A DNA stretch of 47,157 bases from Cetobacterium somerae ATCC BAA-474 (GTDB lineage Bacteria > Fusobacteriota > Fusobacteriia > Fusobacteriales > Fusobacteriaceae). Position numbers and translations under genes: made by a program. The notes beneath the pieces were generated by a model. That model was not told the DNA's origin. It searched no databases and saw only the letters and a list, made by a program, of their open reading frames with translations. Of the stretch, positions 18,689 to 41,637 are shown piece after piece; position 1 is the first letter of the stretch, and the number at the start of each line of letters is the position of its first letter. Location of the stretch: the NCBI RefSeq assembly GCF_000479045.1, contig NZ_KI518117.1:1-47157 (forward strand), given 5' to 3'.

Positions 18689-19894
18689 CTATTTTTTTCT
18701 TTTTCTACTAGATAGAATTCCAAGCTCCTCTCTATATTTTCCTACTGTCCTTCTCTGTACTAGTAGATTTTTTTCCATAAGTTTTATTAAAATTTTTTCA
18801 TCTGATAAAGGATTATTTTTATCTTCACTCTCAATAATTTTTAAAATTTCTCTTTTTATTAGCTCAGCCTTATCATCTAAAACAATATATTTTTTTAAAC
18901 TTTCTATTTTCCCATTTATTTTTATAAATTTATCTTTTAAAGCTCTTGAAATTGTAGATTCATGAAGATTTAAGCTGTAAGCAATATCTTTAACTTTTAA
19001 TGTTTTTAAATTTTTATCAAAAAGAATATATTCTTTTTGATAATTTAAAACATATCTTCCAACTTCTAAGAGTGTTTCTTGTCTTTTTATCAAACCTCTT
19101 TCTAAAGCCAAAGCTAATATTTGATCTTTTTTGTTTTCGTTTTTTAACCTTATTTTTGGAATCCCTGATTCATTTAAATTTACAATAAGCTCTTCATTAT
19201 TTGTCTCTACAAACAAATCTGGAATAATATAATCTGTTTTTTTATTTACATAAAAACCTCTCGCAGGATTAGGATTTAAATTTTTTATTGTATTTATATA
19301 CTCTTTAACTTTAGCTAATGGAATATCTCTTTCTAAAGAGATTTTTTTTAAATCTGCATTTGCAATATCCTCTAAATTTTTATCTAAAATATTAGATAAT
19401 GTATCAGTCAAAATGCCTTTATTTTCAAGTTGAATTTTTAAACACTCTATAAGATTAGTGGCACCGACTCCTATAGGCTCTAATGTGTGTAAAATTTTTA
19501 TAGCATCTTTAAATATATTTAATTTAAAACCACCATTTTTCCTTAACTCTTCTAAATTAGAGATTAAATAACCTCTTTCATCTAAATTATTTATTAGATA
19601 CTCTAAAATATCTCTAACTTCTCTTTTTATTTCTAAATAAATTATTTGCTCCTCTAAATAACTTATTAAACTCTCATCTTCCTCACCTATATTCTCAATA
19701 AAATTTTCATAATCTTCATTTTTTGAAAAATTAGATTTTGGAAAAATAATCTCTATATTTGAGTTTTTTACACTTTCTTTCTCCAAGTATTCTTTCAGTT
19801 CTTTTAAACTCATTTTTAAAATCTCTATAGATATTTTCATCTCTAAAGAAAGATTTAATTTTAAACTTTGATCTAACCCCAATTTAAAATCCAT
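18689..19894 (-). CDS. rpoN: RNA polymerase sigma-54 factor
   Basis: Alternative sigma factor for -24/-12 promoters. 401 residues, somewhat short for RpoN. Region I at the N-terminus (LDQSLKLNLSLEMKISIEIL) is the activator-responsive segment. It is followed by an acidic linker, a core-binding region (about 85-240) with ARGFYV, an HTH region (LHESTISRALKDKFI) and the RpoN box as RRTVGKYREELGI close to the C-terminus. It lies downstream of tonB, with AAGGGGGA before the ATG. Its partner activator and a cognate promoter are at 36111-38046. Confidence 0.95.
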   Translation of the reverse strand: MDFKLGLDQSLKLNLSLEMKISIEILKMSLKELKEYLEKESVKNSNIEIIFPKSNFSKNEDYENFIENIGEEDESLISYLEEQIIYLEIKREVRDILEYLINNLDERGYLISNLEELRKNGGFKLNIFKDAIKILHTLEPIGVGATNLIECLKIQLENKGILTDTLSNILDKNLEDIANADLKKISLERDIPLAKVKEYINTIKNLNPNPARGFYVNKKTDYIIPDLFVETNNEELIVNLNESGIPKIRLKNENKKDQILALALERGLIKRQETLLEVGRYVLNYQKEYILFDKNLKTLKVKDIAYSLNLHESTISRALKDKFIKINGKIESLKKYIVLDDKAELIKREILKIIESEDKNNPLSDEKILIKLMEKNLLVQRRTVGKYREELGILSSRKRKK

Positions 19895-31925: not shown

Positions 31926-33356
31926 TTACTCAATCTCAGAAGAGTTTGCTTCATTTCCTGCTTCTGCATCTTGATAAACTTCATGATTTAAGTTTCCTAA
32001 ACTCTTATCAACCATTAATGCGTTTGTAACTGATCCAATTACGTTTAACATTGTTCTTGGCATATCGATAATAGGATCGATTGCTAAGATTGGGTTAATT
32101 AGAGGGAACATAGCTGCTAATCCAGTTCCTGATAAAGCAACTGAAGCTGCCATTGTTGCTGTTCCTGGAATTCCTGCAATTCCTAATGAACTAATTGCCA
32201 CAACAATTATAGACATTACTATTAATGTTGCATCAATTGGATGTCCGCTCATATTTGTAACAAATACAATTGTTAATGCTGGGAATATTCCTGCACAACC
32301 TTGCATTCCTGCTGTTGTACCAAAACTTGCAACAAAACTTGCTGTTGATTCACTAACACCTAGTTTATTAGTTAATGTTGAAATTGTTACTGGTAAACAT
32401 CCAACACTTGATCTAGACGTAAATGCTAAAATCATTAAAGAGATACTTTTCTTTACATATGTAAATGGATTTAATCCAAAGAATGATACTGCTATCATCT
32501 GTATTACAAACATAACTGCTGTTGCTAAGTATAAAACTGCTATGAATTTTCCTACTTCTGCTATTGCTCCAATACCTTTTTGTGCAATTGTGTTTGCTAA
32601 TAATGGTACTACTGCTAAAGGCATCCATCTAATAATACTCATTGCCATTGATACTATAATTTTTTGAGAAGCATTTATTAAATCAAAGAATGGCTTTACA
32701 GTATCCATATATTTCTTTGACATTCTCTTTGCTGCTACTCCAACAACTGCTGAGAATATAACTAATCCAACAATATTTAACTTAACCATTGCTTCAACTG
32801 GGTTTGAAGGAATAAGAGCTTTCAATGTATCAACAATATTGCTAACCTCTCTGATTTTTCTTCCACCCTCTGTTGCTACAGCTTGTACTGCATCAGTTGA
32901 AACTTTTCCAACTTCAAATAAATTTCCTAAAAGTAATCCAACACCTACAGAAATTGCAACCATTACTAAAGTAATAATTAAACTTTTCTTTACTAAATCT
33001 CCTAAATTCGCATCCTCTTTCATGTTAATAATAACATGTATGATTGATACCATAACTAATGGAATAACTAACATTCTAATTAAAGATATAAATCCTCCAC
33101 CAAGTAAGCTATACCATAGTGTTGTCTCTTTTACAAATGTTAAATTCATTGGATTCTCTGGGAATCCAGCTACAAATTGAATTGCTAATCCTAAAATTAA
33201 ACCAACAACTGTTGCAACCATAACTTTTGCTGAAAAGTTAAATTTTTTCTTTGGTAACATATTTATTAGAAATAAAATTACTAATAATGCTACTAAGAAA
33301 CCAACAGTTTTCAAATCACTAATCATTAAAAATTGTTCAAAAAATACATTGTTCAT
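31926..33356 (-). CDS. TcyP-like L-cystine:cation symporter (DAACS family)
   Basis: 476 residues with the dicarboxylate/amino acid:cation symporter fold: FISLIRMLVIPLVMVSII, LAFTSRSSVGCLPVTI (the serine-rich loop) and a C-terminal PIIDMPRTMLNVIGSV substrate and cation segment. End to end it resembles the Bacillus cystine transporter TcyP, including the GLNP.TYVKK and F..FG...G..GCAGI..A segments, rather than GltP. It is the last gene of the cyuA-flavoprotein-symporter operon, so cystine uptake fits the context. GGGAG lies upstream of the ATG, with a T-rich spacer on the coding-strand complement. Confidence 0.86.
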   Translation of the reverse strand: MNNVFFEQFLMISDLKTVGFLVALLVILFLINMLPKKKFNFSAKVMVATVVGLILGLAIQFVAGFPENPMNLTFVKETTLWYSLLGGGFISLIRMLVIPLVMVSIIHVIINMKEDANLGDLVKKSLIITLVMVAISVGVGLLLGNLFEVGKVSTDAVQAVATEGGRKIREVSNIVDTLKALIPSNPVEAMVKLNIVGLVIFSAVVGVAAKRMSKKYMDTVKPFFDLINASQKIIVSMAMSIIRWMPLAVVPLLANTIAQKGIGAIAEVGKFIAVLYLATAVMFVIQMIAVSFFGLNPFTYVKKSISLMILAFTSRSSVGCLPVTISTLTNKLGVSESTASFVASFGTTAGMQGCAGIFPALTIVFVTNMSGHPIDATLIVMSIIVVAISSLGIAGIPGTATMAASVALSGTGLAAMFPLINPILAIDPIIDMPRTMLNVIGSVTNALMVDKSLGNLNHEVYQDAEAGNEANSSEIE

Positions 33357-33405: not shown

Positions 33406-34749
33406 TTATTTTGCTACATTACCAGCTACGTTCATTACATCCCAAGTTCTAGCAAATGGTGGAGCATAACAGAAATCCATCATTCCAATCTCATCCACTG
33501 TTAACTTAGCATAAATCGCTGTTGCTAAAGAGTCTACTCTTAAAACTGCGCCTTTTTTACCTGCAATTTGTCCTCCTAAAAGAACTCTTGTATCTGCATC
33601 ATAAATTAACTTTACAAATATGTCCTCTCTACCTGGATAATAGTTTGTTTGATTTTTATCTTTTATAAATACAGTTTTATAGTTTATTCCCATTTTTATT
33701 GCTTCAGATTCTGTTATTCCAGTTCTTCCAGCCTCTACATCCATAACTTTTACTGCTGCTGATCCTAAAGTTCCTTGAAACTCAGTTTCTACTCCTGCTA
33801 AGTTTTCTCCAACTATTCTACCAATTTTATTAGCAGTTGTTGCAAGAGGAATATACACATTTTCTTTTCTTACTAAATGAGGAACTGTTGCACAATCTCC
33901 TGCTGAGTAGATTGAATCAATACTTGTTCTTCCATGGTTATCTATTACTAAAGCTCCATTTCCTAACATTTCAATTCCTGTTTCTTTTAAGAAAGCTGTA
34001 TTTGGTCTTACTCCTGTTGATACAACAACTATATCAGCTGGGTATTCCCCTTTGTTAGTCTTTACTTTTACAACTTTTCCATTTTCCTCTACAATCTCTT
34101 GTACAATCTCTTCTAAGTGCAGTTCTACACCTTCGTGAGTTCTTATTTCCTCTTCCATAACATCAGTTATCTCTTTATCAAAACTTTCTAAAAGAACTCT
34201 ATCACCTAATTGAATTATTCTAACACTTCTTTTTCCTAAATGTTTAGCTGCCTCTGCTACTTCAAGTCCAATATATCCAGCTCCAACTATAACGATATCT
34301 TGGTTCTCATCTTTTAGCATCTCTTCTTTTAAGACTATTCCATCTGTATAATCTTTTAAAGTATACACACCTTTAGTAGATAAATTTTTAATTGGTGGCA
34401 TTATTGCATGAGCTCCTGTAGCTACCATTAATTTATCATAATTGTCTATAAAAGTTTCACCTGTTACTAAATTTTTAACAGTTACCTCTTTTTTATCTAC
34501 ATCAATTGCTATAACTTCGTGCTTTATTTTTATGTTCATTCCAGCTTCTATAAATTTCTCTACTGGTCTTGCTATCATATTATTTGGACTTTCAAAAAAG
34601 TTTCCAACATAGTATGGAAGCCCACAAGCTCCCCATGAAACAACCTCAGTTTTTTCATAAATTACTAACTCTGCTTCTTTGTTAAGTCTACTTGCTTTTG
34701 CTGCTGCTGACATTCCAGCGGCAACTCCACCGATAATTATTATTTTCAT
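33406..34749 (-). CDS. FAD/NAD(P)H disulfide reductase, CoA-disulfide-reductase type
   Basis: 447 residues: FAD-binding IIIIGGVAAGMSAAAKA at the N-terminus, a single redox cysteine in WGACGLPYYVG (no CxxxxC pair), NAD(P)H-binding IVIVGAGYIGLEVAEAA, FAD-binding STGVRPNTAFL and SAGDCATV, and a dimerisation domain ending FCYAPPFARTWD, whose Tyr is typical of CoA-disulfide reductases. ATG 34749 is chosen because AGGAGG lies 4 bp upstream; the frame opens six codons earlier. Between cystine symporter and cysteine desulfidase it probably reduces CoA disulfide, cystine-type mixed disulfides or persulfide; NADH oxidase is the alternative. Confidence 0.85.
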   Translation of the reverse strand: MKIIIIGGVAAGMSAAAKASRLNKEAELVIYEKTEVVSWGACGLPYYVGNFFESPNNMIARPVEKFIEAGMNIKIKHEVIAIDVDKKEVTVKNLVTGETFIDNYDKLMVATGAHAIMPPIKNLSTKGVYTLKDYTDGIVLKEEMLKDENQDIVIVGAGYIGLEVAEAAKHLGKRSVRIIQLGDRVLLESFDKEITDVMEEEIRTHEGVELHLEEIVQEIVEENGKVVKVKTNKGEYPADIVVVSTGVRPNTAFLKETGIEMLGNGALVIDNHGRTSIDSIYSAGDCATVPHLVRKENVYIPLATTANKIGRIVGENLAGVETEFQGTLGSAAVKVMDVEAGRTGITESEAIKMGINYKTVFIKDKNQTNYYPGREDIFVKLIYDADTRVLLGGQIAGKKGAVLRVDSLATAIYAKLTVDEIGMMDFCYAPPFARTWDVMNVAGNVAK

Positions 34750-34776
34750 TTTTCCTCCTAAAACCATATATTAAAA

Positions 34777-36054
34777 CTAGTTATTTAACATTATTTCTAA
34801 AACAACTTCATCTGTCTGTCTTAATCCTTCATGAGCTAAAACCTTTACATTGGCTAAAGTTGCTTCAACATCTTTACCAACTATTCCTTCTCCATATTCA
34901 AAGTTCTTTTTCTTTTTAGATAAATAGTATGAATCAAATGCCATTCCAATTGAACTCGCTATTTTTGTTGCACAAGAACTCTTTGCTCCATCACATAGCA
35001 TTCCTGATAATGTTGCTAAAGTTGTTTCAATTGCTGCATCTATTCTGTCTAAAGGCATTCCATCTAAAAAGGCTAAAGCTCCTGCTACTCCTCCTCCAGC
35101 ACAAACAACTCCACAATATGCTGATAATCTTCCAACGTTTGATTTTATATGTATTGTTGTTAAATGTGAAAAGAATAGTCCTCTTATTAATTGCTCATGT
35201 GTTAATCCTTTTTCTTCACAGTACTTTATAACTGGTAAAGATGCAGACATACCTTGATTTCCACTTCCACTTGTTGTCATTACTGGCATAGAACACCCGT
35301 TCATTCTTGCATCACTTCCAGCACTTGCAAAGCTTACAATCTTGTTTTTTAAATCTTTACCGTAAACTCCCTCTTGCATACCTTCATATAAACTTTTACC
35401 CATACTTATTCCATAATCATTTTTTAAACCTTCATTTGCTATAGCTGAGTTATAAGCTATAACCTTTTCAAAAATTGGAGCAATTAAGGCTAAATCTATA
35501 GTTTTAGCTAAATCATGGATTAACTCAACAGTTAAAAAACTTTTATCTGTCATCATATCTCCAGTAACAACTTCGTCACAAGATGCACCTTTTATTATTT
35601 CACCATTTTTTTCTATTTTAACAATATTTGTATGATAATCTTTAATCTCTATTGTAACTGTATCTTGTCCTAAAACTCCTGTAGCTCTCATATGAAGCTT
35701 TACATCCCCTTCTATTTTAGTAGCTACAACTTTTTTATTATCTAAATACTCTTTAACTTCATTTAATCTTGATTTATCAACGCTTGATATAACCATTAAC
35801 TCTTTTTTAGAATCTCCTAAAATTGTTCCAAGAGCTACAGCTGCCTCTATTCCTACCATTCCTTCTGAGTTTGGTATTTTTACACTTTTAACATTTTTTA
35901 TTAAATTTCCTGATAAAGCGATATCAACCTTCTCTGGAACTCCACCTAATATTGATGTTAATTTACTTCCTATATATGCTAAAGCTATCGGTTCTGTACA
36001 CCCCTCTGCTGGAACTATCTCTTCATTTAAAATACTTAAAATTTTATCTATCAT
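34777..36054 (-). CDS. cyuA: L-cysteine desulfidase (CyuA/UPF0597 family)
   Basis: Oxygen-sensitive [4Fe-4S] lyase converting L-cysteine to pyruvate, NH3 and H2S; related to the alpha chain of iron-sulfur L-serine dehydratase. 425 residues from ATG 36054, with Cys19 in PAEGCTEPIALAYIG, then SGSGNQGMSASLP, YCGVVCAGGGVAG and DGAKSSCATKIASS, whose cysteines match the cluster ligands of the family. The frame opens 23 codons upstream, but AAGGAGG at 36068-36074 and the sigma-54 promoter at 36111-36128 both support 36054 (ribosome-binding spacing a little long, about 11 bp). First gene of the cystine operon. A general serine-dehydratase-like role remains possible. Confidence 0.9.
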   Translation of the reverse strand: MIDKILSILNEEIVPAEGCTEPIALAYIGSKLTSILGGVPEKVDIALSGNLIKNVKSVKIPNSEGMVGIEAAVALGTILGDSKKELMVISSVDKSRLNEVKEYLDNKKVVATKIEGDVKLHMRATGVLGQDTVTIEIKDYHTNIVKIEKNGEIIKGASCDEVVTGDMMTDKSFLTVELIHDLAKTIDLALIAPIFEKVIAYNSAIANEGLKNDYGISMGKSLYEGMQEGVYGKDLKNKIVSFASAGSDARMNGCSMPVMTTSGSGNQGMSASLPVIKYCEEKGLTHEQLIRGLFFSHLTTIHIKSNVGRLSAYCGVVCAGGGVAGALAFLDGMPLDRIDAAIETTLATLSGMLCDGAKSSCATKIASSIGMAFDSYYLSKKKKNFEYGEGIVGKDVEATLANVKVLAHEGLRQTDEVVLEIMLNN

Positions 36055-36110: not shown

Positions 36111-36128
36111 AAGCAATTTTCATTCCAA
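36111..36128 (-). promoter_or_regulatory. Sigma-54 (-24/-12) promoter of the cystine operon
   Basis: The minus strand reads TTGGAATGAAAATTGCTT: GG at 36126-36125 and GC at 36114-36113 are separated by exactly 10 bp, and the -12 block TTGC matches the consensus; the -24 block is TGGAATG against TGGCACG. Transcription would begin near 36101, about 47 bp upstream of cyuA. No good sigma-70 promoter lies nearby, and three candidate activator sites are upstream. Confidence 0.85.
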
Positions 36129-36233: not shown

Positions 36234-36286
36234 TTTTCATTTTGAAAAATTTTTCATTTTGAAAATAGTTTTTTTCATTTTGAAAA
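36234..36286. repeat. Three palindromic activator-site repeats (UAS)
   Basis: TTTTCATTTTGAAAA occurs identically at 36234-36248, 36251-36265 and 36272-36286. Each copy is itself an inverted repeat (TTTTCA/TGAAAA around three T). They lie about 108-160 bp upstream of the -24 element at 36126, the usual range for enhancer sites of sigma-54 activators, and begin 3 bp past the stop codon of the activator gene. Start-to-start spacing is 17 and 21 bp. Confidence 0.8.
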
Positions 36287-36288
36287 TT

Positions 36289-38046
36289 CTAAATATTATA
36301 TTTCTGTATTTTTCTATATAAAGTTGTCAATCCTATTCCCATTTTATCTGCAATTTTTTTCTTTCCTTCTGTATCTCTTCCAAAAATTTTGAGTGCTTTT
36401 TCAATGTAACTTTTTTCCACAACTTGAAAATCTTCCATATAAGATACATCTTTTGATTCTTTTTTCTCTACAACTATTTCATTATTTATTCTTCTATTTT
36501 CTAATAGCTTTTCAGGAACTGTGGATAAACTTAAAATATCACTATTATCTGAAAGATTAAACATAAACTCTACTACATTTTCTAATTCTCTTATATTTCC
36601 TGGCCAAGAATAATTTAAAAATAACTTTTCTACTTCTATATCAATAAAGCTTATGTATTTTTCAGTTATTCTATTATATTTTTTTATGAGATTTTTTGTT
36701 ATTGGTAAAATATCCTCTCTTCTGTCCCTTAAAGGTGCTATTTCAAAAGGAATAACTTTCAATCGATAATAAAGATCTTCTCTAAATTCTTTTTCAAGAA
36801 TTTTTTTCTCTAAATCTACATTTGTTGCTGCAATAATTCTAATGTCTAACTCTATATCTCTATTTGAACCTACTCTTGTTACTTTTCTCTCTTGAAGTAC
36901 TCTTAATATTTTAGCTTGCAAATATAAAGGCATATCTCCAATTTCATCTAAAAATATAACTCCTCCATTTGCTAACTCAAACTTTCCCATACGCCCATTT
37001 TTGTCAGCACCTGTAAAAGCTCCTCTCACATATCCAAATAGTTCACTTTCTAAAAGAGACTCAGGAATTGCTGCGCAGTTTATAACAACAAAGGGGGCAT
37101 TTCTTCTTGAACTATGATAGTGTAAAGCTCTCGCTACTAGCTCTTTTCCTGTTCCACTTTCTCCTGTTATCAACACCGTTGACTTTGAAGGTGCAACATG
37201 TTTTATTCTTTCTCTCAATAGATTAGTAAACTCTGAATCACCTATTATATTTTCTAATGAAACACTATTTGATGTTTCAACTAGGCCTCTAATTCCATCA
37301 TTTACCTTATTCATATCATCAAAAATAAAAATTTTTTCATTTTTTCCAAAAGCTTCAAAAGGTAATATTTTTCCAAGAACTGTTAACTCTTTTTCTTGAA
37401 CTTTCAATTTATATATCTCTTCTTCCATAAGAAAATCATTTTGTGAGCTTAATTGTATTTTTTTCCCAAGAATTCTACTATCTGATTCTATCTTTTTCAA
37501 AGCAAAATTATTAATACTTGTTATTATCCCCTCACTATTAAATCTCAAAACACCTTTTTGAATTGTATTCAATATTGTTGTAAGAACATTTTCTCTTTCT
37601 GTTTTTTCTAAACTTTCATTGTACTCAATAAATCTTATACTTATCAGTTCAGCCATTTGTTCAACAAAATCTAAATAATTTTTTAAATTTTCTAAAACTC
37701 TTTTCTTTTGATTTTCATCAAAAGAAACTAAACTTATTAAACCGATTAATTTTCCTTCATACATTATTGGAGTTGATATTTCTAATACTTCTAAACAACA
37801 ATCTTTTTCTGAACAACCACTACAAATCTCATCCTCTCTAGGATTTAAAATAACTGTTGTTTCTTTGGTTTCTAATGTTTTTTTATTAGCTCTTCCTCTT
37901 ATTTTTTCACCTATTTTTTGAGGTCCACTTCCTGTTATTCTTATAAGATTTTTATCACAAATCCCAACATCCATTGCAAATAGTTTCGATATTGTTTTTG
38001 CATATTTTTTTAACTCATCTTTTATTACTAATAAATCAGTTTTCAT
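36289..38046 (-). CDS. Sigma-54-dependent transcriptional activator with Cys-cluster sensor and PAS domains
   Basis: 585 residues. The N-terminal sensor (about 1-140, GAF-like) contains a cysteine cluster CSGCSEKDCC (residues 75-84) and Cys30. A PAS-like domain (about 150-250) follows. The AAA+ domain (about 262-500) has Walker A GESGTGKE, the sigma-54 contact loop GAFTGA, Walker B GGVIFLDEIGD and an R-finger region; the C-terminal Fis-type helix-turn-helix ends LTTLYRKIQKYNI. No phospho-receiver domain is seen, so it should respond directly to a ligand or redox state. It is read from its own sigma-70-type promoter and lies next to its probable target operon. Confidence 0.93.
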   Translation of the reverse strand: MKTDLLVIKDELKKYAKTISKLFAMDVGICDKNLIRITGSGPQKIGEKIRGRANKKTLETKETTVILNPREDEICSGCSEKDCCLEVLEISTPIMYEGKLIGLISLVSFDENQKKRVLENLKNYLDFVEQMAELISIRFIEYNESLEKTERENVLTTILNTIQKGVLRFNSEGIITSINNFALKKIESDSRILGKKIQLSSQNDFLMEEEIYKLKVQEKELTVLGKILPFEAFGKNEKIFIFDDMNKVNDGIRGLVETSNSVSLENIIGDSEFTNLLRERIKHVAPSKSTVLITGESGTGKELVARALHYHSSRRNAPFVVINCAAIPESLLESELFGYVRGAFTGADKNGRMGKFELANGGVIFLDEIGDMPLYLQAKILRVLQERKVTRVGSNRDIELDIRIIAATNVDLEKKILEKEFREDLYYRLKVIPFEIAPLRDRREDILPITKNLIKKYNRITEKYISFIDIEVEKLFLNYSWPGNIRELENVVEFMFNLSDNSDILSLSTVPEKLLENRRINNEIVVEKKESKDVSYMEDFQVVEKSYIEKALKIFGRDTEGKKKIADKMGIGLTTLYRKIQKYNI

Positions 38047-38157: not shown

Positions 38158-38199
38158 TAATTATAGCATATGCCAATAACTAAAAAAAGAGGTGTTTTT

Positions 38200-38571
38200 A
38201 TGAAAATTGCAGTTGTTTCTGAAAATAACAAAATTAGTCAACATTTTGGAAGAGCAGAAGGTTTTTTTGTTTATGATGGTACAAATAAAGAATACCATAA
38301 AAGTAATGGACACGGAGCTATTCCTGGACAATTAAAGGAATTAGGCGTTGAATTTGTAGCTTGTGGTGGAATTGGTGAAGGAGCTTTAAATAACTTAAAA
38401 TCTCTTGATATTAAAGTTTTTTCTGGCCTAGAAGGATTTTGTGACGATATAGCTGATGGATTCTTTAAACATATACTAGTTAACGGAGAAGCAGTATGTA
38501 ATAGTCATGAGCATCACCACGAACATCATCATGGACATGGACACTCTTGTAATTGTAAGTGCGGAAAATAA
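38200..38571 (+). CDS. NifB/NifX-family (dinitrogenase iron-molybdenum cofactor-like) protein with His/Cys tail
   Basis: 123 residues from ATG 38200, which follows GAGGTG by 5 bp; the frame is open ten codons earlier. The core matches the small NifX-like family: IAVVSENNKISQHFGRAEGF, then FVACGGIGEGALNNL with a conserved Cys. The C-terminal 22 residues are almost all His, Cys, Gly and Glu, with repeated HEHHH and a CNCKC end, a strong metal-binding tail. Such proteins occur in non-diazotrophs and probably handle Fe-S or other metal clusters. Directly followed by the DUF134 gene. Confidence 0.85.
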   Translation: MKIAVVSENNKISQHFGRAEGFFVYDGTNKEYHKSNGHGAIPGQLKELGVEFVACGGIGEGALNNLKSLDIKVFSGLEGFCDDIADGFFKHILVNGEAVCNSHEHHHEHHHGHGHSCNCKCGK

Positions 38572-38573
38572 AT

Positions 38574-39017
38574 ATGGCTAGACCTACTAAAGTTAGAAGT
38601 GTAGAATTTATTCCAAATGAAACAAAGTTTATCCCTGAGGGAAGTAAAAATTGTAATATTCATTTTAATAATATAAAAATTGAAGAATTAGAAGCAATTA
38701 GACTTAAAGATTTAGAAAATTTATCTCAAGAAGAGTGTGCTGAAAAAATGGGAGTTTCAAGACAAACTTTTCAAAATATACTTAATTCAGCAAGAGTTAA
38801 AATAACCGAAGCTCTTATTATGGGATATGGAATTCAATTAAAGGGAGGAGATTTTAAAACTCCTCATTGTCAATTTATATGTAACTCTTGTGGTCAAACT
38901 TTTATTCCCACATTAAAAAAAGATTTAGATTTTTGTCCTAATTGTAATTCAGAAGATATATTTTGTACAAAAAAGAAAGTTAAATGTAGGAAAGTTTGCA
39001 AATTAGATATAAAATAA
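38574..39017 (+). CDS. DUF134 (UPF0251) DNA-binding protein with zinc ribbon
   Basis: 147 residues starting MARPTKVRSVEFIP, 2 bp after the NifX-like stop; an upstream in-frame ATG at 38559 is possible but overlaps the previous gene. It contains a sigma-factor-like helix-turn-helix (LSQEECAEKMGVSRQTFQNIL) and a C-terminal CNSCG...CPNC zinc ribbon with more cysteines after it (FCTKKKVKCRKVC). The family often sits beside NifX-like genes, so it may regulate them or metal-cofactor genes; function not established. Confidence 0.85.
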   Translation: MARPTKVRSVEFIPNETKFIPEGSKNCNIHFNNIKIEELEAIRLKDLENLSQEECAEKMGVSRQTFQNILNSARVKITEALIMGYGIQLKGGDFKTPHCQFICNSCGQTFIPTLKKDLDFCPNCNSEDIFCTKKKVKCRKVCKLDIK

Positions 39018-39053: not shown

Positions 39054-39824
39054 CTAAAAAGCTGGAACTACTCCACCTTTATAAGTATTTTCTATAAAAA
39101 CTTTTACTTTTTCACTTTGTAAAGCTTTTACTAATTTTTGGATATCCTCTTTTTTCTCATCTCCCTCTCTTACAGCTATTAAGTTAGCATAAGGTGATTC
39201 TTTTCCTTCAATTATTAAAGCTTCTGTTAAAGGATTAAGTCCTGCTTCGATTGCATAGTTACCATTTACTACTGCTAAATCAACATCTTCTAATGCTCTT
39301 GGTATTTGAGCAGCATCTAAAGACTTAAATTTTAAATTATTTTTATTTTCTACAATATCAAACTCTGTAGCTAATAAATCTTGAGGATTCTTTAATTTTA
39401 TAATACCATTATTATGTAAAAGAATTAAAGCTCTTCCACCATTTGTTGGATCGTTTGGTATTGCTACCACTCCACCTTTTTTTAAATTCTCTATTTTATT
39501 AACTTTTTTAGAATAAACTCCTAAAGGTTCTACATGAACATTACCTGCTGATACTAATTTTAAATTTTTTTCTTTAGAAAAAGTTTCTAAATATGGTTTA
39601 TGTTGGAAAAAATTAGCATCCAACTCTTTTGAATCCAATAGTAAATTTGGTGTTACATAATCTGTTAATTCTATTATTTCTAATTCTACATTTTCATTTT
39701 TTAAATCATCTTTTACTAATTGTAAAAGTTGTGCATGAGGAACTGGAGAAGCTCCAACTTTTAATTTTGCCCCAAAACTTATAACTGATCCTAATAAACC
39801 TAATACTAAAACTAATTTTTTCAT
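39054..39824 (-). CDS. metQ: Methionine ABC transporter substrate-binding protein
   Basis: 256 residues, NlpA/MetQ family: KVGASPVPHAQLL near the mature start, DYVTPNLLLDSKELDANFFQH and IPNDPTNGGRALILL, then a VVNGNYA segment, all typical ligand-contacting parts. The signal peptide ends VISFGA with no lipobox cysteine, so unlike most MetQ proteins it should be a soluble periplasmic protein. Last gene of the metN-metI-metQ operon under a SAM riboswitch. Confidence 0.92.
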   Translation of the reverse strand: MKKLVLVLGLLGSVISFGAKLKVGASPVPHAQLLQLVKDDLKNENVELEIIELTDYVTPNLLLDSKELDANFFQHKPYLETFSKEKNLKLVSAGNVHVEPLGVYSKKVNKIENLKKGGVVAIPNDPTNGGRALILLHNNGIIKLKNPQDLLATEFDIVENKNNLKFKSLDAAQIPRALEDVDLAVVNGNYAIEAGLNPLTEALIIEGKESPYANLIAVREGDEKKEDIQKLVKALQSEKVKVFIENTYKGGVVPAF

Positions 39825-39826
39825 AA

Positions 39827-40477
39827 CTACCTCCCATTTTTTTTCAATCTATTTGATATTAAATTTCCAATTAATTGAACTCCTTGAACTAAAACTATAA
39901 TAATTAAAACCGAATAAATCATTATATCTAACTTAAATCTATTATAACCAAATCTGATAGCTAAATCTCCAAGTCCACCACCACCAATAGCTCCAGCCAT
40001 TGCAGATAAACCTATTAAATTAATAACTAATAGTGTTATTCCTTGGATTAGAGATGGTAACGATTCTGGAATCATTACTTTAGTTATTATTGTAAAATTA
40101 TTAGCTCCTAAACTTTCACTTGCTTCTATTACTCCTCTATCCACTTCTAAAACACAATTTTCAACTATTCTTGCTACAAAGGGAGCTGCCGATATAGAAA
40201 GAGGAACTATTGCTGCTGTACTTCCTATTGTCGTTCCTATTATAAGTCTAGATAGTGGTAATAATAAAATCATTAAAATTATATAAGGAAATGATCTTGT
40301 TATATTTATAATTCCATTCAAAATTCTATTTATTCCCTTATTTTCAAATATATGTCCATCTGATGTAATTGCTGCTAAAATTCCACAAGGAAATCCTATT
40401 CCTAATGAAACCACAGCAGATAATAAAACCATATATATTGTCTCTATCGTCGCTTGTATTAACATATTAAATACCAT
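39827..40477 (-). CDS. metI: Methionine ABC transporter permease
   Basis: 216 residues, five membrane segments, with the permease EAA-type loop in [17 protein letters not shown] and [18 protein letters not shown] near the end, both typical of MetI. Overlaps the end of metN by 11 bp; GGAGG is upstream. Confidence 0.93.
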
Positions 40478-41474
40478 CGTAAATAACCTCCACTCCTACA
40501 TCTAAACTTGGAAACCAAGCTATTGCTTCATTTTGTTTATCCATATCCCCTATTAATTCAACCATTAAATGTCCTACCTGCATAGTTGATAAAAGATCAA
40601 TTGCACCACCTAAGACATTTATATCTATATTAAACTTTTTTACAGCTTTAGATAATATAGGATCTCCTGCTACTGAGCCTAAAAACATTAATTTTATAAC
40701 TTTATTTCCAGATTTTTTTATGTAATCAATCTCCTCTTTTTCTTGAGGTGGAACATATGATATTAGTTCTTTTGTAATCTCTGTTTTTGGACTTAAGAAT
40801 ATTTCATATGTTTTTCCAGTTTCTACAACTTCACCATTTGACATAACAGCTACTCTGTCACAAATCTCTCTAATAACTTCCATTTGATGAGTTATTAAGA
40901 CAACTGTTAATCCCATTTTTTTTTGAATATCTTTAATTAGTTTTAATATAGACTTTGTAGTTTTTGGATCTAAAGCGGATGTTGCTTCATCTGATAAGAG
41001 AATATCTGGATTATTAGCTAAGGCTCTAGCTATTGCAACTCTTTGTTTTTGTCCTCCAGAGAGTTGAGTCGGATAAAATTCCTCTTTATCTTCAAGTTCT
41101 ACTAACTTTAAAAGTTCTTTAACTCTTACATCAATTTCTACTTTTGACCAACCATCAATTTCTAAAGGAAATGCTATATTTTCTTTAACTGTCCTAGATT
41201 TTAATAGATTAAAATGTTGAAATATCATTCCAATTTTTTTTCTTTTATTTAATAGTTCTTTTTTTGAAAGTTTTGATAAATCTACTCCTTCAATCTCTAT
41301 TTTTCCTGTTGTCAATGGCTCTAACCCATTAAATAATCTTATTAAAGAGGATTTTCCAGCTCCACTTAATCCAATAATTCCAAATATTTCACTTTTCTCA
41401 ATCTTTAAAGAAACATCTTTTACAGCATGAAACTTATTATTATAAATTTTATTCACTCTTTCTAAAGTAATCAT
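40467..41474 (-). CDS. metN: Methionine ABC transporter ATPase with NIL domain
   Basis: 335 residues from ATG 41474 (GGGAGG 5 bp upstream; the frame opens ten codons earlier within the riboswitch terminator region). Walker [13 protein letters not shown], signature [14 protein letters not shown], Walker [13 protein letters not shown] and H-loop ITHQMEV. The C-terminal NIL domain (about 255-335) is the methionine-sensing module that gives trans-inhibition in E. coli MetN. Confidence 0.95.
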
Positions 41475-41489
41475 TTTATCCTCCCGTAT

Positions 41490-41637
41490 AAAAAAAACTC
41501 CCATCTTAATATTTAATTAAGATGAGAGTAAGTAAACAAGACTTCTACTTCTCCCATCTATCTGGAGTTAGCACCACACCATAATGGTAGGTTGCTGAAA
41601 CGTCATCGGGCCAGTCCCTCGGTCTCTCTTGATGGTT
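41490..41637 (-). promoter_or_regulatory. SAM-I (S-box) riboswitch with terminator and antiterminator
   Basis: Minus strand: CCATCAAGAGAGACCGAGGG, ACTGGCCCGATGA, CAGCAACC and GGTGCTAACTCC are the S-box core; P1 closes by CCATC (41631-41635) with GATGG (41554-41558). Downstream, a terminator (arms at 41498-41510 and 41515-41527, then eight T) competes with an antiterminator in which GATGGGAG at 41551-41558 pairs with CTCTCATC at 41521-41528. SAM binding should hold P1 and allow termination before metN. Confidence 0.96.

Follow-up and report, generated by a model that had tools for sequence, protein, structure and literature searches.

In C. difficile, the gene cdsB is induced by cysteine, and it requires SigL, the regulator CdsR and a region upstream that contains two inverted repeats (PMC5767170). 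These repeats are 12 bp each and lie 21 bp apart (PMC5767170), and the CdsR of this organism has been classified as CdsR type 2 (PMC6615313). DioR-type sigma-54 activators (EBPs) act on dpaL and related targets (PMC6615313, PMC7438776). Dyads with a CA-N3-TG core have also been reported as UASs of SypG (TTCTCANNNTGMDWN) and LuxO (TTGCAWWWTGCAA) (PMC10162802), and Ser423 of LuxO is among the residues that are essential for its function (PMC11407668). With regard to fusobacteria, a limited literature search on sigma-54 enhancer-binding work found no dedicated study.

The stretch of DNA analysed here (the window) comprises 47,157 nucleotides from Cetobacterium somerae ATCC BAA-474. It contains three exact copies of the 15-mer TTTTCATTTTGAAAA, starting at positions 36234, 36251 and 36272 by exact string matching, each of which is a perfect inverted repeat of the form 6+3+6 (TTTTCA-TTT-TGAAAA). 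The three copies sit in an intergenic region of 213 bp with 11% GC, flanked on one side by the stop codon (36289-36291) of a sigma-54 activator gene and on the other by the -24/-12 promoter of an L-cysteine desulfidase operon; the cluster begins 3 bp past the activator end (Table 1). The first-pass annotation had described this triplicate palindrome, with start spacings of 17 and 21 bp, as lying about 108-160 bp upstream of the -24 element, and both statements are confirmed, the distance being counted to the GG of the promoter. In dinucleotide shuffles of the intergenic region, one match to TTTTCANNNTGAAAA arose in 10 of 20,000 and two arose in none of 20,000. Any 15-mer occurring three times was found in 184 of 20,000 shuffles of the same region, so that at this GC content the symmetry and conservation of the sites tell more than their bare exact repetition. 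We propose that the three palindromes are the UAS (enhancer) through which the adjacent EBP drives the cdsB operon, a reading to which comparison of sequences leads us to give a probability of roughly 0.9.

Table 1. Features of the cysteine desulfidase locus and of the sigma-54 system in the window
Feature	Position	Strand	Basis
Predicted UAS copy 3, promoter-proximal, TTTTCATTTTGAAAA	36234..36248	.	Exact match; conserved in congeners
Predicted UAS copy 2, 17 bp from copy 3	36251..36265	.	Exact match; proximal pair 17-18 bp in congeners
Predicted UAS copy 1, distal, 21 bp from copy 2	36272..36286	.	Exact match; gap to copy 2 21-32 bp in relatives
Sigma-54 activator (EBP), 585 aa	36289..38046	-	Pfam, translation, alignment, AlphaFold2 model
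-24/-12 (sigma-54) promoter element TTGGAATGAAAATTGCTT	36111..36128	-	TGG-N10-GC; same place in congeners
cdsB/cyuA-type L-cysteine desulfidase (SDH_alpha family), predicted target	34777..36054	-	Pfam; match to 9he0
CoA-disulfide reductase family flavoprotein, probable operon gene 2	33406..34767	-	NCBIfam NF007123, over cut-off
SDF-family symporter, probable operon gene 3	31926..33356	-	Pfam SDF
rpoN, sigma-54	18689..19894	-	Sigma54_DBD E 1e-31; TIGR02395 over cut-off

A -24/-12 promoter and rpoN, both expected of a sigma-54 EBP/UAS system, are present in the window, and the dyads fall within the range of about 100-200 bp upstream that is likewise expected. The cdsB product matches the solved L-cysteine desulfidase 9he0 (E 7e-32), and the solved relatives of this SDH_alpha-family protein are L-cysteine desulfidases only. 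Its true start is the ATG at 36054-36052, which is preceded by AGGAGG; the mechanical ORF start at 36123 falls within the promoter element. As for the symporter, cystine or a dicarboxylate are guesses at its substrate.

The arrangement resembles the CdsR-cdsB system of C. difficile in that an EBP gene of the same overall family stands directly upstream of an L-cysteine desulfidase gene with a sigma-54 promoter, and in that repeated inverted repeats lie between the promoter and the EBP gene. However, the activator of the window falls on another branch of the tree, the operon adds a reductase and an SDF symporter, and the half-sites read TTTTCA, whereas the cdsB regulators of Peptostreptococcaceae, with helix S-R-A-T, have [AG]TCTCA-N3-TGAGA[CT]. 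A pair of sites joined by a further one is shared with DioR-type EBPs, in which the pair is 17-22 bp apart and the third site is often present, but their third site is 55-88 bp off rather than 21-32 bp, the activators of dpaL (diaminopropionate ammonia-lyase) have TTATCA-N3-TGATAA in place of TTTTCA-N3-TGAAAA, and the target here is the cysteine desulfidase gene. SypG and LuxO of Vibrionaceae are likewise EBPs whose sites have a palindromic CA-N3-TG core, although they are response regulators of quorum sensing and biofilm genes and the outer bases of their sites differ. The motif had initially been taken to match no known activator site; this does not hold at the level of the class, to which the UASs of SypG and LuxO (PMC10162802) and the cdsB repeats of C. 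difficile (PMC5767170) already belong.

The EBP comprises an N-terminal SpoVT_C/GAF-like domain, a PAS-like domain labelled solely from its pattern of strands and helices, an AAA+ domain with the GAFTGA motif and a Fis-type HTH. Pfam recovers Sigma54_activat with an E value of 2e-71 and HTH_8 just above threshold, and GAFTGA is seen in the alignment. In the AlphaFold2 model the recognition helix spans residues 573-582 (pLDDT about 90) and is therefore opened by L573 and T574. A C-x2-C-x5-C motif (C75, C78 and C84) is invariant in the N-terminal SpoVT_C/GAF-like domain of all 22 aligned EBPs. These cysteines might serve sensing, possibly of a metal or a thiol; the same cysteines occur in dpaL regulators, which argues against a cysteine-specific role.

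Conservation of the sites was followed in the other congeners with an orthologous EBP, all 10 of which keep the gene order of EBP, sites, promoter and cdsB, with the -24/-12 element at the matching place. Absence of the repeat from close relatives keeping the operon had been named in advance as grounds against the enhancer proposal, which this test did not refute: two to three recognisable copies are in place in 10 of 10 other congeners with both activator and cdsB. In eight genomes all three copies are clean or nearly so, and G003 and G010 show degenerate copies next to one or two clean ones; at least one copy is imperfect in G002, G003 and G010. A single clean copy is present in G034, and no site was found at locus L282. 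Across the congeners the core triplet switches between AAA and TTT and the spacers vary, with the arms constant, and when ten loci are aligned with MAFFT the invariant columns number 27 among the 45 of the motif and 13 among the 116 others upstream. The proximal pair keeps a start-to-start distance of 17-18 bp, and the distance of the distal site varies (21, 22 or 32 bp in the genus of the window; 21, 24, 25 or 31 bp in another genus). In G005, contig C6 (locus L138, 1-10000) carries the cdsR region again as a mirror image that includes a second, truncated cdsR; this is an inverted duplication or else an artefact of assembly. In the same genome, a second GLT-type EBP precedes a small gene and a further cdsB-like gene (L130, 4177-4350); no clear site was found there, and apart from a terminator-like hairpin the region shows just TTGTCA/TTGCCA dyads, which are imperfect.

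Within the genus of the window, the paired site occurs once per genome, at cdsB, with one genome having one more in a mirrored contig; the strict pair pattern misses G003 and G010 because of their degenerate copies. A reversed-pattern control gave zero matches in this genus and likewise in a second one. In two other genera the activator gene is often away from cdsB, and the sites remain before cdsB, as had been predicted. Triple sites and a -24/-12 promoter stand directly upstream of cdsB in four genomes with the activator elsewhere (G017, G071, G072 and G074), three full or imperfect copies precede cdsB in four more of this kind (G029, G076, G078 and G080), and in G075 two sites lie before a transporter gene which itself precedes cdsB. 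No paired site was found in four genomes without an EBP of this type and without a close cdsB (G001, G073, G077 and G079). The suggestion that the sites form an enhancer for the adjacent activator thus gains support from conservation among congeners, and stronger support from the sites found at cdsB with the activator unlinked, as far as sequence can tell. The first-pass annotation had further envisaged a regulon defined by copies at other promoters, and the genome-wide search placed the paired site only at cdsB, with no further promoter-linked copies. The window's own genome has five other single TTTTCANNNTGAAAA copies, all within open frames and none with a suitable -24/-12 element downstream, and a wider regulon in this genome was rejected on these grounds. 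Since the paired site occurs nowhere else in the genus, the predicted regulon is one operon.

The relationships of the activator were inferred from a tree of 110 EBPs, from which the recognition helix was left out, and from a second tree of 125 EBPs with Clostridiaceae added, the latter a quick search with several long branches. In both trees the EBP of the window nests, with supports of 98-99, among Fusobacteriaceae activators adjoining dpaL, these neighbours having been identified by TIGR03528. The CdsR type known from C. difficile, represented by the Peptostreptococcaceae EBPs adjoining cdsB, makes up a clade of its own with a support of 100, and orthology of the window's EBP with C. difficile CdsR is accordingly unsupported. 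These trees are most simply read as descent of the window's EBP from a DioR-like one. A CdsR1-type orthologue, which may still exist among weaker relatives, was also sought in Clostridiaceae above the cut-off (207 genomes, 60 loci read), and none of the promoter-linked sites detected there stands before cdsB; these sites precede dpaL and other genes.

About 130 related activators were compared for the recognition helix and the sites, and the counts for the third base of the half-site cover 124 of them, many being close relatives. Dyads were collected upstream of -24/-12 promoters by requiring a CA-N3-TG core and at least five of six arm pairs, with positions 1-4 unbiased; the dataset holds only loci with a detected dyad and promoter. 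At least two dyads with a TCA core were present in 93 of 128 regions, compared with 0.1 expected from Markov-resampled sequence, the regions having been chosen for having one. Base 3, scored as the majority base per activator over half-sites with the TCA core, follows the residue pair that opens the recognition helix. It is A in 65 of the 66 activators whose helix opens with I/V-A, T in all 19 with L/M-T and C in 11 of the 13 with L-A; the R-A activators have C in 25 of 26 cases, together with a purine at motif position 1 in 83 of 90 half-sites. Overall, the two residues give the right base 3 for 120 of the 124 activators. This link, which is correlative, suggests that a pair of residues in the recognition helix determines a single base of the site. 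Thr574 of the window's EBP aligns with LuxO Ser423 in our own alignment. A match of the residues to Arg456/Asn457 of NtrC is presumed here, and was not confirmed by the literature searched.

It thus appears fairly probable that a code operates in CdsR/DioR-type activators, in which helix residues 1-2 (573-574 here) would set half-site base 3 (I/V-A for A, L/M-T for T, L-A for C, R-A for C plus a purine at base 1), and that the cysteine desulfidase operon of Fusobacteriaceae took over a DioR-like activator, with a switch that would keep the sites of this activator distinct from those of the co-resident dpaL activators. The same pattern could reflect shared ancestry only, with the named residues not causal: each clade is large with near-identical members, the clades also differ at further HTH residues, and the tree is a quick one with long branches. 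Nevertheless, on this tree the T label must have changed at least three times and the L-A label at least four times. The three T origins, namely the Fusobacteriaceae cdsB clade, G149/G150 and G278, all come with TTTTCA, the activators of the latter two standing before dpaL. Furthermore, the EBPs of loci L311 (L-T, TTTTCA) and L300 (L-A, TTCTCA) are 57% identical and share both the target dpaL and the layout. Ancestry without causation is therefore considered unlikely, albeit with appreciable weight. At L300 (G325, contig C1), the 3' end of the activator reading frame already contains the start of the TTCTCAAAATGATAA copies, which makes the putative UAS copies partly coding.

Two further explanations concern the palindromes themselves. 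Starting 3 bp after the activator stop codon, they might constitute the terminator of that gene, or a decaying local repeat without any role in cdsB control, and the RNA is able to fold into weak hairpins rich in AU (-8.7 kcal/mol). This fold is, however, unexceptional (z -1.45, with 17 of 200 shuffles as stable), and in G017, G071, G072 and G074 the sites precede cdsB and are not behind the activator gene; a terminator was rejected for its weak fold and for the sites present without the activator gene alongside, and we hold this whole explanation to be highly improbable. A dyad alone names no protein, and as the EBP is assigned from sequence, a different regulator such as a cdsB repressor might occupy the sites. 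Yet base 3 covaries with the helix residues of the EBP itself, through three independent origins, and the paired site is absent from the checked genomes without this EBP, both of which argue against a different regulator, as does the placement upstream of -24/-12 promoters that is typical of UASs. Its involvement seems very improbable.

Under the preferred reading of the palindromes as the UAS of the EBP, dimers of its Fis-type HTH would bind the TTTTCA-N3-TGAAAA dyads, possibly in a cooperative manner, judging from the site spacing. The fixed proximal pair at 17-18 bp and the looser distal third site would presumably aid assembly of the AAA+ hexamer, which, by looping of the DNA, would contact sigma-54 RNA polymerase at the -24/-12 promoter, 108-160 bp from the sites, and transcription would then start for cdsB and the genes for the CoA-disulfide reductase and the symporter. 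The trigger may be cysteine or a thiol signal, probably sensed by the N-terminal domain. The recruitment of the activator from the DioR-like (dpaL) branch may have involved a change of site from TTATCA to TTTTCA together with a change of helix from I/V-A to L-T.

These results name a predicted regulator, binding site and target for cysteine breakdown in Fusobacteriaceae, a process which should give hydrogen sulfide, pyruvate and ammonia, and they indicate that cdsB is connected to EBPs of different branches in two phyla. The motif class was previously known, and the part that a specialist would find new is the residue-to-base rule, which is compact and testable for Fis-type enhancer-binding proteins and could aid regulon prediction and the design of orthogonal sigma-54 switches.

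With regard to the surrounding genes, a dinitrogenase iron-molybdenum cofactor-like protein and an overlapping DUF134 protein are encoded divergently from the activator (38170-39017), and this gene pair also adjoins cdsR in G005. Near the cysteine operon, positions 39054-41504 encode an NlpA-type lipoprotein, a permease and a NIL-domain ATPase, which probably constitute a methionine or cystine ABC importer.
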